48,913 nt of DNA from a virus. Shown here one piece after another: positions 3,606-12,216 of the stretch. The stretch lies in IMG/VR virus record IMGVR_UViG_3300007541_000031, positions 1 through 48,913 of that record. One strand, written 5' to 3'. Position numbers and translations under genes: made by a program. Position 1 is the stretch's first letter. Each line of letters begins with the position of its first letter. Below the pieces are notes generated by a model, which was given only the letters and a program-made list of their open reading frames with translations, searched no databases and was not told where the DNA came from.

Positions 3606-3630
3606 GCCCAAATCACAATTTGACTTGGGC
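3606..3630 (-). other. Stem-loop overlapping the stop codon of the SbcD-SbcC fusion gene
   Basis: In the minus-strand transcript GCCCAAGTCA pairs with TGATTTGGGC around a 5-base loop (10 pairs, one of them G-U). The TGA stop codon lies inside the hairpin. No U-run follows, so it is not a standard intrinsic terminator. It may be a processing or stability element that separates the nuclease message from the downstream lysis/packaging cassette, or chance. Confidence 0.4.
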
Positions 3631-6600
3631 ATATCCATCGACCTTATCAATTTCAATTGTCTTATCGACAACGTCTTTGAGATTTTCGAGGTGAGTAATT
3701 AACAGAACCGTCTTGAAATGGGACTTAATCATTTGTAATAATCTCACAAAACCTTCCATGTGATCTGCGTCAAGTGCAGTGGCTGGTTCGTCAAGAATAA
3801 AGAAGTCAGGTCTCGGCAAAGAGGATACTGATATCAAAGCTAGGCGAATAGCCATAGAAGCAATTGTCTTTTCAGCACCTGAACCCATTGACAAGGGACG
3901 AGGATCGTATTTAGGGTGCTTTAAGTAAATCTCTAGGTTGCTATCGTCATTGTCAATCAAAACGTCAAAATCAACGATTGAAGAAAGGATAGAAGCAATC
4001 TCTGCGTTAATTACAGACAACATAGACTTAATTACCTCATAAGAGATTCCGTTGGCGTGAGTTGCTTGGGCGAATAAATCATAGGCGATATAATCACGTT
4101 CTGCGTCTTTAACCTTCTGAATTCCTTCTCGAGCTTCTTCAATAAGTCGAGAGGTGGCTCCTTTTTCTGACATTAGCTCTAGCAAGTCCGAGTTGCATTT
4201 TTTGCAATCTCTTTCTTTCATTGAGATAGTTTTGTTGATTGCCATTAAGTCTCGCTTGAGAGAAGATAGGTTCTCGTATGCTTCAATGTTTTCATTGTAA
4301 TATGCGATATCTTCCTCAATCTTTGGAATGCGATGCTCCATTAAAGAAACCTTACCTTCTGCGTTCTCAAATCGTAAAGACTTGTTTTGAATATCGGACT
4401 TTAGATTAATATAATCAATCTCGGTATTCACAAAGTTTTCAACTGTAATCTTCAATCTTTCTTCGTCGAACAAAGAAGCTTTCATTTTAAGATCCAAGAT
4501 AACATTATTTTGCTCTTCTTTTTTCTCGATAGCCTCAGAGATTTTAACCTTTGCTTCTTCTGCCTGCCTTACGAATTCGTTATTACAACAAAAAGAACAG
4601 TTGGGATCATATTCGTGGTCGTGCAACATATCAATCTTAGATTGCAATGAATTAACTTGTCTAGACAGCTTCTCGAACTTTGGAATCTCAGCCTTTAACA
4701 ACTTCTTTAATTCCTTCAAAGAGTTTAACTCTTCCTCAGCCCTAACAGCTTCTTCTTTCAAAGACTCCATTTGAGGCTCTAAAATGGCTAATTCTTCCCT
4801 CTTTGATTTTACTTCAATAGAAAGTTCGGACATTTCTTTTTGAGCCTTTGAGAGCGATTTTTGAGCTTGTGAGAGGGTACTTTGTAGCTCGTCGATATTA
4901 ATGTCTCTTTGTGCTGCTGCGCTTACTTGATCGTTAATTATCTTTTGCTCTTCTCTCAGAACTTCCAAACGAGCTTGGTGTCCTTCGCACTCGTCTTTCT
5001 TTTCTTCAATTTCTCCAAGAATTTCTGCGTATTCACTTAGGGCTTTCTTTAATCTCTTTTCCCAATCAACGGCATTAAGGTGTTTAATATATCCACGCAT
5101 TTCTGCCGAATCTTTTTTGACAGCCTTGTGCATTTCCTCAAAGATTTCAAGGTCTAAGAATTTTCCCAAGATAGCTTTACGCTTAGTAGAACCCTCATTG
5201 ATAAATCCAAACGAATCATGTTGGGCTGCCAAAGAGGTCATTAAGAAATCTTGGAAGTTTCCAATTGTAGATTGAATATTTGCGTCTGTCTCATTGCGAG
5301 TTGTACCATTCTTAGATTCAGCTTGAGTACCTAGAATCATTTTGGTGAAGTCCAAATCTGTCTTTGCAGCTGATTTTGTTCGCTCCAAAGTACGTGTAAT
5401 CTTATATGTATCGTCTCCGATATCAATTTCAATATTACACTTAGATTTATTTTGATTTTGATTAATGATATGAACATTCTTGCGCTCACCTTTCGAGGTG
5501 GTGTTAAACATTCCAAACAAAGCAGCGTCAATGATTGAAGACTTACCTGAATAGTTCTTGCCAAAGATACCAACAAGACCGCTTAGCTTTGAGAAATCAA
5601 TTGAATTACCTTTGCCATAGTTGAATAGGTAGTCCCATTGCATTTTCTTTAGTCGCCAAGTTACATTCCGAGACAAGTCAGAACTAACATACTTAGAAAA
5701 ATATTCCAAAGAAATTTCCTTTGCACGTTCTCTTGTCTCTTCATCAATCTCTTTTGTTGAAAGAAAGTCTTCCATGTATCCGCTGAACACATTAGCGTCT
5801 CGAATATTTTTTGAACGTCCCTTGTTGGTTTTTTCTTCAAACTGAGTTGCTTTGCTTACAACGCGGACAGATAATGGAGACCACTTTGATTGAGCGTAAT
5901 CTTCAAGGCGAACAAGTCTTGCTCTAGGAATATTGTGTTCGCAGACCAAACGCAAACGAGAATTTTTTGGAACGTCAACGTTTGGAAGCTGACCTTCTTT
6001 TGTAACCTCGACTGTAATGAATGGTCGTGGAGATTCAAACAATCTCATTTCTACTGAGTGTTTTTCTTTGCTGTGAATATTCCACATTAGATAACCTTTT
6101 CTGCGAGACTCTCCAAAGTTTTGCTGAACAGTTGAGCCTGCATACCATACACGCTTGTTTTCGTCAAGGTGCTGAGTTCTATGAATGTCTCCGAGCATAG
6201 CGTAGTCAAAATCATTAAAGATAGATATGTCGTCTTCTCCGTGATCTAACTCAAAGCCAGTTCCAACTTGGCAACCTTGAATTGCACCATGATACAGTGC
6301 GATATTGATAGCAGAGTTATCAGAAGGCTTAGTCCAATTATTTCGGTCAAAGACAGATAGAACATTGAACACTAAACCTTCTTCTGGAGAATACTCTTGA
6401 GAGTCTTTTAACAATGTCAGATTAGGATGTTTCAAAGCCTGAACGATTGGTGTGATAGCGTCTTGTCGATCACCATTCTTAAGGTTTCCGTCATGATTAC
6501 CGAGGATCACAATGGTAGGTGCAATATCAGCAAGATTCTTTAGGAAATTAGAAGCCATTTCAAAATACTCTGGAGATAGCTGAGTTTTTGTATGAGCTAG

Positions 6601-6735
6601 GTCTCCTGTGTGTACAATATAGTCTGGTTGCTCTTGAATAAGAGAGTCGTAAATTTCTTTGAATACTTGTCGGTATTCCTCATGATATTTTAAATTGCGA
6701 ATATGTGTATCGCTAATATGTGCGCATCTAAACAT
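3613..6735 (-). CDS. Fused SbcD-SbcC (Mre11-Rad50 / gp47-gp46) recombination nuclease-ATPase
   Basis: A single 1040-residue protein joining two subunits that are separate in T4 (gp47 and gp46) and most bacteria. Residues 1-230 are the Mre11/SbcD phosphoesterase: DTH (9-11), GDL (44-46), GNHD (79-82), YHG (148-150), GDIH (182-185). About 370-470 is the Rad50 N-lobe with Walker A GKNYSGKSS (392-400). A long coiled coil follows, with a CSFC zinc hook at 713-716. The C-lobe has signature LSMGSGAEK (949-957 region), Walker B FFILDEP (978-984) and a LLITH switch. Family role: DNA-end processing for recombination-dependent replication. The ATG at 6735 has AGGAGG upstream and its own sigma-70 promoter. 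A second CxxC (CKKC, 844-847) lies in the descending coiled coil. Confidence 0.93.
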   Translation of the reverse strand: MFRCAHISDTHIRNLKYHEEYRQVFKEIYDSLIQEQPDYIVHTGDLAHTKTQLSPEYFEMASNFLKNLADIAPTIVILGNHDGNLKNGDRQDAITPIVQALKHPNLTLLKDSQEYSPEEGLVFNVLSVFDRNNWTKPSDNSAINIALYHGAIQGCQVGTGFELDHGEDDISIFNDFDYAMLGDIHRTQHLDENKRVWYAGSTVQQNFGESRRKGYLMWNIHSKEKHSVEMRLFESPRPFITVEVTKEGQLPNVDVPKNSRLRLVCEHNIPRARLVRLEDYAQSKWSPLSVRVVSKATQFEEKTNKGRSKNIRDANVFSGYMEDFLSTKEIDEETRERAKEISLEYFSKYVSSDLSRNVTWRLKKMQWDYLFNYGKGNSIDFSKLSGLVGIFGKNYSGKSSIIDAALFGMFNTTSKGERKNVHIINQNQNKSKCNIEIDIGDDTYKITRTLERTKSAAKTDLDFTKMILGTQAESKNGTTRNETDANIQSTIGNFQDFLMTSLAAQHDSFGFINEGSTKRKAILGKFLDLEIFEEMHKAVKKDSAEMRGYIKHLNAVDWEKRLKKALSEYAEILGEIEEKKDECEGHQARLEVLREEQKIINDQVSAAAQRDINIDELQSTLSQAQKSLSKAQKEMSELSIEVKSKREELAILEPQMESLKEEAVRAEEELNSLKELKKLLKAEIPKFEKLSRQVNSLQSKIDMLHDHEYDPNCSFCCNNEFVRQAEEAKVKISEAIEKKEEQNNVILDLKMKASLFDEERLKITVENFVNTEIDYINLKSDIQNKSLRFENAEGKVSLMEHRIPKIEEDIAYYNENIEAYENLSSLKRDLMAINKTISMKERDCKKCNSDLLELMSEKGATSRLIEEAREGIQKVKDAERDYIAYDLFAQATHANGISYEVIKSMLSVINAEIASILSSIVDFDVLIDNDDSNLEIYLKHPKYDPRPLSMGSGAEKTIASMAIRLALISVSSLPRPDFFILDEPATALDADHMEGFVRLLQMIKSHFKTVLLITHLENLKDVVDKTIEIDKVDGYAQVKL

Positions 6736-8929: not shown

Positions 8930-9035
8930 AATCTTTCTCTTCGGATTCTTCCTCAGACTCTTCTTCGGCTTCCTCAAGAATTGCTTACAGCTCTTCTTTG
9001 ATAATTTCTTTTAGTGATTCTTTTGTAAGTTTCAT
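8928..9035 (-). pseudogene. Broken leader mini-ORF (nonsense codon 17)
   Basis: The ATG at 9035 makes a TAATG overlap with the primase stop and encodes MKLTKESLKEIIKEEL, then TAA at 8985-8987. Read through the stop, the frame continues as AILEEAEEESEEESEEKD and ends at 8928, so the intact form would be a 35-residue acidic leader peptide. The intact relative starting at 11042 has CAA (Gln) at the same position (GAGCTTCAAGCA versus GAGCTGTAAGCA), so a single C-to-T change explains the break. Either a decaying gene or a functional free 16-residue leader; readthrough is a third option. Confidence 0.65.
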
Positions 9036-9970
9036 TAGATGTTCTCCAGCATTTGTTCGAAAAAGAACATATCGTTCTTTATTTCTCTAGCATTAACTAG
9101 TCTCTCCTGAAACTCTTTGCCACCCATTTCTGAAACGTCAGCGTCGTCAATTGGAACTTTGTGAACTTCAAGATCGTACTTTAACATAGACTTGATAATC
9201 CATTCTGCTTTCTTCTCGGCGTCATGGTCAAGAGCCATGTAAACTGGTGTATCGTGAATTGCAATTGCTTGAAACAACCGAGACTTTTCTCGAAGGGTTG
9301 ATCCAAGAATCGGAATGGCATTGTTTCCAGCAGCGATAGCATCGAACACACCCTCCACAAGAATCACAGGTTCGTCCCAATCAATATTTAGTTCGTTAAA
9401 AACGATATCACGATCTGCTGGAGGGTTGAGGTACCGACGAGAATGCCCGACATAACTCCTAGCAATGAAATAATTAAGATCTCCGTCCACGTCAAAGGAC
9501 GGGATGATGATTCGTCCGCCATAGCGACCCTCCTTACAATAACCAATTTTCCACTTAAGGATTTCTCTTCTTCCAATTCCTCGAGACGACAAATATCTTA
9601 TTGCGTCCGTTGAGTCCATTGGAAGATCTTTGTTGCACAAAGACACAAAGCCTTCGGGCATTTCCAAGACTTGCTTTTCTTGAATGCTGTTGTATTCCTT
9701 GAACATCTCTTCAAAGTCTGACAAGTCAACGAGACCTTGAAGTTCTCGATACTTTTGTCTTTGTTGGTAATCTCCGAATCTTCTTACAATTCGGTAAATG
9801 TTCTTTCCTCGTTGATCACAAACCCAGCAGTGAAACCCGTTATTAAAATTGATTGCTAATTTCTTTTTGTGATGATTACAGAAAGGGCAGTGGTAATAGT
9901 ATTCACTTTGCCCTTGTCTCTTTGGATAACCTAAAATATTATTTAGGATTTTTAATTTATCTGCTTCCAT
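9035..9970 (-). CDS. DNA primase, zinc-finger plus TOPRIM (T4 gp61 / DnaG type)
   Basis: A 311-residue primase for lagging-strand RNA primers. The N-terminal CHC2-type zinc finger is CPFC (28-31) and CWVC (48-51). The catalytic core has GRIIIPSFDVDGDLNYFIARS (152-172) and YLNPP (180-184). TOPRIM motifs are PVILVEGVFDA (E206) and YMALDHDAEKKA (D248, D250). Length is close to T4 gp61 (about 340), much shorter than bacterial DnaG, so there is no separate helicase-binding domain of DnaB/DnaG size. The ATG at 9970 follows AGGAGG and an extended -10 promoter. A truncated second copy of its zinc-finger half lies at 11704-11880. The helicase partner is not in the window. Confidence 0.93.
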   Translation of the reverse strand: MEADKLKILNNILGYPKRQGQSEYYYHCPFCNHHKKKLAINFNNGFHCWVCDQRGKNIYRIVRRFGDYQQRQKYRELQGLVDLSDFEEMFKEYNSIQEKQVLEMPEGFVSLCNKDLPMDSTDAIRYLSSRGIGRREILKWKIGYCKEGRYGGRIIIPSFDVDGDLNYFIARSYVGHSRRYLNPPADRDIVFNELNIDWDEPVILVEGVFDAIAAGNNAIPILGSTLREKSRLFQAIAIHDTPVYMALDHDAEKKAEWIIKSMLKYDLEVHKVPIDDADVSEMGGKEFQERLVNAREIKNDMFFFEQMLENI

Positions 9971-10024: not shown

Positions 10025-10588
10025 TTAGTAATTAAATCTCTCTGCTCTCTCAATCGCCCTTGTAATCGTTGTTGTGTGAACTCCAATTTCTTTCGCAATT
10101 GATCCTTTTGTTTCTCCGGAAAGCCATCTTTCTCTGAACGATGCTTCTTGTTCGTCCGTAAATCTTTTTCGGGATTTACTTATCTTTCTTCGCCACTCTT
10201 CGCTCACGGGCTTGCCGTAATGTGGGTGGTTTTCGCCGGATAGTTTTTCAGATAGAAGTTGCTTCACTTCTTCTGTGTGGTTCAGTCCAGCCATAGGAGA
10301 GCCGGCTACTCTGCTAATGTTGTAGATTTCTTGACCGCCACCAAAGGCTTCGTCAAGATATTCTTGCTCTTTCGCAAGCAAGTTTGCTCTTCTTACTTCT
10401 TCAATCAATACGAACTCAAATTGATCTTCGCCGTGTTTGTTGTAAGAATTTTGAAGGTGGAAGTTGGTGTGAGTTCCGCTTCTCAAGTTTGACTTGTGAT
10501 GTCTCCACCTTCTCTTAATGTTGTTTGAAGATCCAATGTAAAATTTTCCATTGACCTTATTTGTTATTTTGTAAATTCCCGAGTTCAT
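10025..10588 (-). CDS. Free-standing GIY-YIG homing endonuclease with NUMOD3 and HTH
   Basis: A 187-residue endonuclease. The GIY-YIG catalytic domain is at 1-90: GIY (4-6), YIG (17-19), basic RRWRHH (26-31) and candidate catalytic Glu in LAKEQEYLD (E74/E76). A NUMOD3-type DNA-binding motif follows (SGENHPHYGKPVSEEWRRKIS, about 117-137) and then a C-terminal helix-turn-helix (KGSIAKEIGVHTTTITRAIE, 161-180). Such enzymes cut a specific site in related phages and spread by repair of the break. No intron is seen around it. The ORF overlaps the end of the small RHH-like gene by 32 bases, so the two are probably translated from one message. Confidence 0.92.
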   Translation of the reverse strand: MNSGIYKITNKVNGKFYIGSSNNIKRRWRHHKSNLRSGTHTNFHLQNSYNKHGEDQFEFVLIEEVRRANLLAKEQEYLDEAFGGGQEIYNISRVAGSPMAGLNHTEEVKQLLSEKLSGENHPHYGKPVSEEWRRKISKSRKRFTDEQEASFRERWLSGETKGSIAKEIGVHTTTITRAIERAERFNY

Positions 10589-10799: not shown

Positions 10800-11042
10800 T
10801 TATGCGTCGTATCGCCTGATAGCTTCTTCAAAAGAGGCTTTAGAAAGACCTAAATAATTAGGGTTCTGAGAATACTCTCTCCATAATTGCTCCTCTGACA
10901 TGTTTATTGGGTCATCAGAATCCCACCAATCATTTAATAGTGCACGGACATGATCAGGATTAATGTCCCCGTCTTCTTCTCTCAAAGTTGCTTGAAGCTC
11001 TTCTTTGATAATTCTTTTTAATGTTGCTTTTGTAAGTTTCAT
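10800..11042 (-). CDS. Leader-bearing small acidic protein
   Basis: An 80-residue acidic protein. Residues 1-16 are MKLTKATLKRIIKEEL (leader family, I12-K-E14). The body (REEDGDINPDHVRALLNDWWDS and onward) is helical with tryptophans and ends EEAIRRYDA. No known domain is recognised; the body has a helical composition like small phage internal proteins. The ATG follows AAGGAG. The DNA from codon 16 back through the ribosome site to ACTATTTAAAGCATAA is nearly identical to the corresponding part of the gene at 11941-12216, showing a recent cassette duplication. Confidence 0.8.
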   Translation of the reverse strand: MKLTKATLKRIIKEELQATLREEDGDINPDHVRALLNDWWDSDDPINMSEEQLWREYSQNPNYLGLSKASFEEAIRRYDA

Positions 11043-11707: not shown

Positions 11708-11880
11708 TTTATCATCTCCGTTAAATGAATGTCTGAAAATAAATAGTAGCCATTTGCGAAGTTCACCGACAATTTCTTTTTGTGGTGATTGCAAAAAGGA
11801 CAATGATACAAATGCTCATCGCCCTTTTGATAATAAGACCCAAGAACTTGGGTTACAATTTTTCTTTTGTCCTCGATCAT
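11704..11880 (-). pseudogene. Truncated primase zinc-finger copy
   Basis: A 58-residue remnant starting MIEDKRKIVTQVLG, followed by HCPFCNHHKKKLSVNFANGY, which matches residues 27-46 of the primase at 9035-9970 (HCPFCNHHKKKLAINFNNGF). The match stops exactly before the second cysteine pair (CWVC) and the frame then enters the ACTATTTA/CATTCATTT leader-cassette sequence and ends. Promoter and AGGAGG ribosome site remain intact. DNA divergence from the full gene is considerable, so the duplicate is not recent. It may now serve mainly as a promoter for the GNAT-like leader gene. Confidence 0.85.
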
Positions 11881-11940: not shown

Positions 11941-12216
11941 TTACATTTTTTTAATTAAACTTTCTAATTTCTTCAAGAGTCTATCATGGCCTGCCGTTTC
12001 TGTGCCTTCATACATGTAGCCGATTTCTTCAAGTGCTCCTTCTTTATCTCCATTTGAAACTAACTCTTTGAGATCGCTGAAATCAAGGATCATACCCAAG
12101 TCGTCGCCTTTTTCTAGATTATTAATCATTTCAAGAGCTTGGTCTTTGCCCTCTCCGAGAGTCGCTTCCAACTCTTCTTTGATGATTCTTTTTAATGTTG
12201 CTTTTGTAAGTTTCAT
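11941..12216 (-). CDS. Leader-bearing small acidic helical protein
   Basis: 91 residues from the ATG at 12216 (AAAGGAG upstream); a longer frame extends into the preceding gene and is not credible. Residues 1-16 are MKLTKATLKRIIKEEL, identical to the 80-aa protein, then EATLGEGKDQALEMINNLEK and a helical body that looks like tandem short helices (LDFSDLKELVSNGDKEGALEEIGYM) ending LLKKLESLIKKM. No domain recognised. It lies directly after the NMN-adenylyltransferase-like gene; the stop of that gene falls 26 bases before its ATG, so the two are probably one transcript. Confidence 0.8.
   Translation of the reverse strand: MKLTKATLKRIIKEELEATLGEGKDQALEMINNLEKGDDLGMILDFSDLKELVSNGDKEGALEEIGYMYEGTETAGHDRLLKKLESLIKKM

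Follow-up and report, generated by a model that had tools for sequence, protein, structure and literature searches.

We analysed a viral sequence of 48,913 nucleotides (IMG/VR record IMGVR_UViG_3300007541_000031, positions 1 to 48,913; hereafter the window), which carries on its minus strand a gene joining an Mre11-like (SbcD-like) nuclease and a Rad50-like (SbcC-like) ATPase in a single chain of 1040 amino acids (3613-6735). We are highly confident that this aquatic phage encodes an SbcCD/Mre11-Rad50 enzyme on one polypeptide and that the protein falls into the fusion group that is specific to viruses and includes mimivirus R555 as its type member. The fusion gene is a real observation, ordinary in kind and mostly explained already. 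The fresher and more important observation is that the fusion gene and the neighbouring primase gene appear to be recurrent hosts of end-replacing homing elements in this phage family, an interpretation that we consider likely.

Results and discussion

A nuclease and an ATPase in one reading frame

The frame of 1040 codons starts with the ATG at 6735 and runs down the minus strand to 3613. A first-pass annotation of the window had placed a natural nuclease-ATPase fusion at the same coordinates without giving the strand, and had described an order of motifs that our own reading of the translation reproduced: DTH (9), GDL (44), GNHD (79), H149, GDIH (182) and Walker A GKNYSGKS (392), followed C-terminally by CSFC (713), CKKC (844), SGAEK (952) and FILDEP (979). 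Profile searches agree with the frame. Pfam matched Metallophos at residues 3-185 (1.1e-12), AAA_23 at residues 375-582 (4.3e-11) and, likewise beyond the Metallophos part, SMC_N, while PHROGs assigned residues 1-349 to the SbcD-like phrog_100 (2.4e-32) and residues 298-1037 to the SbcC-like phrog_77 (1.6e-55).

An AlphaFold2 model of the monomer, built from 30 sequences (mean pLDDT 78.9, pTM 0.51), was used together with motifs and relatives to map the domains, all of which are encoded on the minus strand. The phosphoesterase domain (residues 1-243; 6007-6735) is defined by the Pfam match and by its motifs DTH, GDLAH, GNHD, H149 and GDIH, which are invariant in 86-87 distinct sequences. It is followed by an Mre11-like capping domain (residues 244-294; 5854-6006), recognised by alignment with SbcD structures and delimited by the secondary structure of the model. 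Behind a low-confidence stretch (295-307), the model contains two helices (314-326 and 332-350; together 5686-5796), which by analogy to Thermotoga maritima Mre11 (PMC3175470) would form the C-terminal helix-loop-helix that binds Rad50. The two halves meet at residues ~350-360 (5656-5690), where R356, N357 and W360 are invariant among 30 aligned proteins and the Rad50 fold begins at 359-360; the region 5560-5640, across which a check of the frame by reads had been suggested before, encodes residues 366-392, which include the start of Walker A. In the model, the ATPase is split by two coiled-coil arms, an ascending one (530-704; 4624-5148) and a descending one (720-891; 4063-4578), connected by a hook turn (705-718) with the zinc-hook CxxC at C713-C716 (4588-4599), which is supported by conservation among 87 distinct proteins. 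The N-terminal lobe (359-529; 5149-5661), assigned by Pfam, motifs and model, contains Walker A at 5539-5562. The C-terminal lobe (897-1040; 3616-4047), assigned by profile and model matches, contains the signature SGAEK (3868-3882), Walker B FILDEP (3784-3801) and H1015. Hence the calcineurin-like phosphoesterase fold and capping domain of SbcD/Mre11 are present, as are Walker A, Q-loop, signature, Walker B, His switch, coiled coil and zinc hook of SbcC/Rad50. The idea that fusion had shortened both partners is not borne out, as nuclease, capping domain, helix-loop-helix, whole ATPase, coiled coil and hook are found in the model and no obvious truncation is seen in either half; the Rad50 part is, however, smaller than cellular SbcC.

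Structure comparisons gave a matching picture. Heads of Escherichia coli SbcC aligned to the model with Z ~28 (7yzo_D, Z 28.4, rmsd 3.5 over 352 residues), and SbcD/Mre11 structures aligned to residues 1-294 with Z 22-23 (7dog, 3thn; VIA-align comparison with Staphylococcus aureus SbcD 7dog, Z 23.3). The sequence profile of the family also matches solved Rad50 and SbcD. The top viral structure match was a 'putative DNA repair protein' of Tupanvirus with 1379 residues (Foldseek E 9.8e-61), followed by proteins of Harvfovirus, Yasminevirus and Catovirus, of phage pT24 and a 1009-residue Listeria phage protein. Such matches in both giant viruses and phages indicate that single-chain forms are widespread in viruses.

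Relatives share the single frame

A single polypeptide could in principle result from a sequencing or assembly error that joined two genes of the gp47 and gp46 type in frame, and most well-studied phages indeed have two genes. Relatives were thus decisive. A scan of viral contigs yielded 45 loci with a protein query and at least 580 relatives with an alignment query, 80 of which were kept. Among the 126 fusion loci examined, some of which are the same contigs fetched twice, 111 contain the full-length, unbroken single frame, corresponding to 86 distinct proteins of 1036-1058 residues. The remaining loci end at contig edges, except for L040 with one in-frame stop and L163, which is interrupted by an insertion. 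Nine residues of the nuclease half (D9, H11, D45, H48, N80, H81, H149, D183, H185) as well as G397-K398-S399, Q505, S952-G953, D982-E983, D989 and H1015 of the ATPase half are unchanged in at least 86 of 87 sequences. The recurrence of the frame across many samples excludes chance and an assembly error. Together with the conserved joint and the annotation of single genes in Microcystis phage Mel-JY01 and Tenacibaculum phage pT24, these independent relatives refute the two-gene reading, to which we assign a practically negligible probability. The single-chain gene is therefore taken as genuine in the following.

A single scan of genome contigs for cellular homologues returned two contigs of metagenome-assembled genomes (L132, L133). 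In both, the gene has a primase of the phage type as its neighbour, and we read them as phage DNA binned with bacteria. The Walker A region of L033 and L040 reads VSLNGPNGQGKSAIL, compared to VGIFGKN[YF]xGKSSI[IV] in their closest relatives, as if this segment had been exchanged.

Hook and coiled-coil cysteines

The hook has the form DPxCxxC in 73 of 87 distinct proteins, including that of the window, and a wider-spaced form, PCG-x4/5-C, in the other 14; the latter was seen in the hook region of L023, L028-L036 and L040. A second CxxC at residues 844-847 had been noted as unexplained in the first-pass annotation. C847 is present in all 87 distinct sequences, but C844 in only seven, so that CKKC is best described as one conserved cysteine with a chance neighbour. 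On the other arm of the coiled coil, C583 (~4987-4989, minus strand) is conserved in 86 of 87 sequences and lies ~131 residues before the hook, while C847 (~4195-4197, minus strand) lies ~132 residues after it; given these near-equal distances, the two cysteines may be located opposite one another on the paired arms. The invariance of C847 and its equidistant partner are what could speak for a further zinc site, or another hook, at 844-847, but the relatives do not maintain this CxxC as a pair and we regard such a site as very improbable.

A known kind of viral fusion

Mre11/Rad50 fusions are not novel and have been known in viruses since 2011, when a study by Yoshida, Claverie and Ogata reported this architecture for R555 of mimivirus and for a further twelve proteins, including those of a Bacillus phage, plasmids and eukaryotes (PMC3175470). 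Homologues of R555 were frequent in metagenomes of aquatic (viral) DNA, with an enrichment in the size fractions of viruses, the fusion itself being confirmed in a few long environmental sequences (PMC3175470). According to the published description, R555 shares with the window protein an N-terminal Mre11 part and a C-terminal Rad50 part on one chain, but is longer (1351 versus 1040 amino acids) with a longer coiled coil. It carries two substitutions: the third Asp in motif II is replaced by His, and the residue corresponding to His206 of Pyrococcus furiosus in motif V by Asp (PMC3175470). Both are found in the window protein as GDLAH and GDIH, with D45, H48, D183 and H185 invariant. The canonical GHxH form of motif V is absent from all 87 distinct sequences, which have GDIH throughout, and the window protein was thus filed with the viral fusions and not with the canonical cellular SbcD/Mre11 clade.

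Other systems are similar in part. E. coli SbcD/SbcC and archaeal and eukaryotic Mre11-Rad50 share the folds and most motifs, but are encoded by two genes and have longer coiled coils, GHxH instead of GDIH and an LSGGE-type signature instead of SGAEK. T4 gp47/gp46 likewise combine nuclease and ATPase, with a presumed common role in end processing for recombination-dependent replication, but occupy two genes. Bacillus phage Eldridge also keeps separate proteins and the canonical motif V (GHYH), whereas Mel-JY01, like the window, has GDIH. The Mel-JY01 'AAA domain containing protein' (WWT39521.1) is a single chain of 1066 amino acids with a DPKCKHC hook and 28% identity to the window protein; a primase-like gene is located directly upstream of its gene and a GIY-YIG gene before the primase.

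Proposed function

Mre11-Rad50 assembles as M2R2. Since this ratio is 2:2 already, the fusion does not newly impose a 1:1 stoichiometry, as had been supposed, but retains the usual ratio and places each nuclease beside its own ATPase, so that the halves would act in cis. Only ~8 residues separate the last Mre11-like helix (350) from the Rad50 fold (359) in the window protein. For T. maritima, a distance of ~28 Å between the end of Mre11 and the start of Rad50 was argued to suit a short linker (PMC3175470).

From these features we infer catalysis, dimer form, substrate and replication role by analogy: the protein most likely forms a homodimer and processes DNA ends in the manner of T4 gp46/47 or SbcCD. 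Contacts between the ATPase heads, between the nuclease domains and at the zinc hook would probably hold two chains together in the usual M2R2 head, which would carry a coiled-coil arm of ~25 nm. On binding ATP, the clamp would close around its DNA substrate (ends, hairpins or branched replication intermediates), and ATP hydrolysis would make the clamped DNA accessible to the Mn-dependent nuclease. The resected ends would then be used to repair the phage genome and to replicate it by the recombination-dependent route, as for T4 gp46/gp47.

The exchange in motif V means that activity or metal preference may differ from enzymes with GHxH. It could even be argued that the protein retained the clamp or tether while its nuclease was lost or changed, considering that Asp at position 183 is invariant in all 87 distinct sequences and was also reported for R555 (PMC3175470). 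However, the other metal-site motifs (DxH, GD, GNHD, H149 and the last His) are invariant, which favours an active centre, and Asp should be able to bind metal as well; we therefore give little credence to a loss or change of nuclease function and prefer the end-processing homodimer.

The genome context points in the same direction. In most relatives whose contig extends that far, a primase gene lies nearby upstream of the fusion gene. In each of ten longer viral records, the phosphoesterase family and the SbcC-like family were found once, with no second phosphoesterase, no second complete SbcC-like gene and just a displaced tail in the record of L034, although these records are fragments and the absences count for little; five of the ten contain a RecA-family gene. 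The nearby primase, the lack of second copies and the RecA-family genes support a role in recombination-dependent replication. That aquatic phages carry the fused form so widely suggests that it belongs to the standard equipment for their replication. With nuclease and ATPase in one compact chain, an SbcCD of this kind would lend itself well to biochemical and structural work on how the two cooperate.

Homing endonuclease genes at the Walker B codons

GIY-YIG genes were found beside the Walker B codons of the fusion gene at five distinct loci. In L032/L035, L034, L045 and L056, the whole fusion gene is followed by a GIY-YIG/NUMOD3 gene and then by a duplicate of its last 60 codons, which begins at the Walker B codons (L032 6756-7905, identical in L035 and L055; L034 4796-5835; L045 1625-2751, on a contig that starts inside the fusion gene; L056 3929-5077). 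A shorter remnant of a displaced end is present in L052/L053. Attached and displaced ends differ synonymously in 20-28 of 58 codons and non-synonymously in 3-10. In L032, it is the displaced copy that most resembles the uninterrupted relatives L036/L029 (85% of bases, versus 77% and 76% for the copy still attached), and in L045 the displaced copy likewise comes closest to L003 (86% versus 74%). Both results would be expected if the attached end had been imported. For L034, the base comparison favours neither copy as import.

The primase gene of the window shows the mirror image of this arrangement: a displaced 5' piece (11742-11880), a GIY-YIG gene (10025-10588) and a complete primase gene (9035-9970), all on the minus strand. 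The piece ends shortly after the HCPFCNHHKKK motif, and 26 of 49 residues are common to both primase starts. Comparable primase pieces were seen in L029 and L074/L075, and a comparable piece of a chaperonin start in L058.

End-replacing homing is known from yeast and fungal mitochondria, and the yeast WHO elements replace gene ends. The phage pattern resembles these cases, with cutting being a prediction here. We suggest that the GIY-YIG gene occupies a place where the codons specify a motif that the protein cannot do without, i.e. Walker B of the fusion protein and the zinc motif of the primase, and that the element would bring along a synonymously recoded gene end. The host gene would thereby stay whole and become resistant to cutting, while its old end would be left behind as a displaced fragment. 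If true, such homing would be a route to mosaic genes, in which one end of an essential phage gene differs in its history from the other. A keyword search of the literature accessible without subscription returned no report of end-replacing homing in phages, and the same applies to a review of mobile DNA in T4.

Between fusion stop and endonuclease gene, two short Walker-B-like pieces (TATTTATTTTAGATGA) occur in L034 (4979-5060) and L045 (1808-1870), where they form part of a terminator-like hairpin, and such pieces are likewise present in L032 (6939-6990) and L056 (4112-4150); they are possibly scars of earlier homing. A search for flanking repeats gave 26 hits, many of them chance or simple-sequence matches (e.g. 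L067, L077, L117) that were left out.

Insertions and a shared leader

In L163 (4070-5058) and L048 (2070-3114), insertions at the same site of the Mre11 half, just after GDIH, split the fusion into two frames and contain nuclease-like ORFs (DUF7487/NUMOD3, TnsA-like). Rfam gave no group I intron match at the gathering threshold in the window, L032, L034, L045 and L048, and no meaningful intron match for L163/L048 at E<=1. A group I intron of a described family at the interrupted sites is thus unsupported by Rfam, which leaves room for an intron of an undescribed family.

Finally, otherwise different short ORFs of the window, all on the minus strand, share the N-terminal leader MK[IL]TKxxLKxIIKEELxxxL (1129-1605; 8985-9035, broken by a stop; 10800-11042; 11941-12216). 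The pattern gave 181 hits in 90 of 212 loci and none after codon shuffling, and possibly represents a putative capsid-targeting leader like that of T4.
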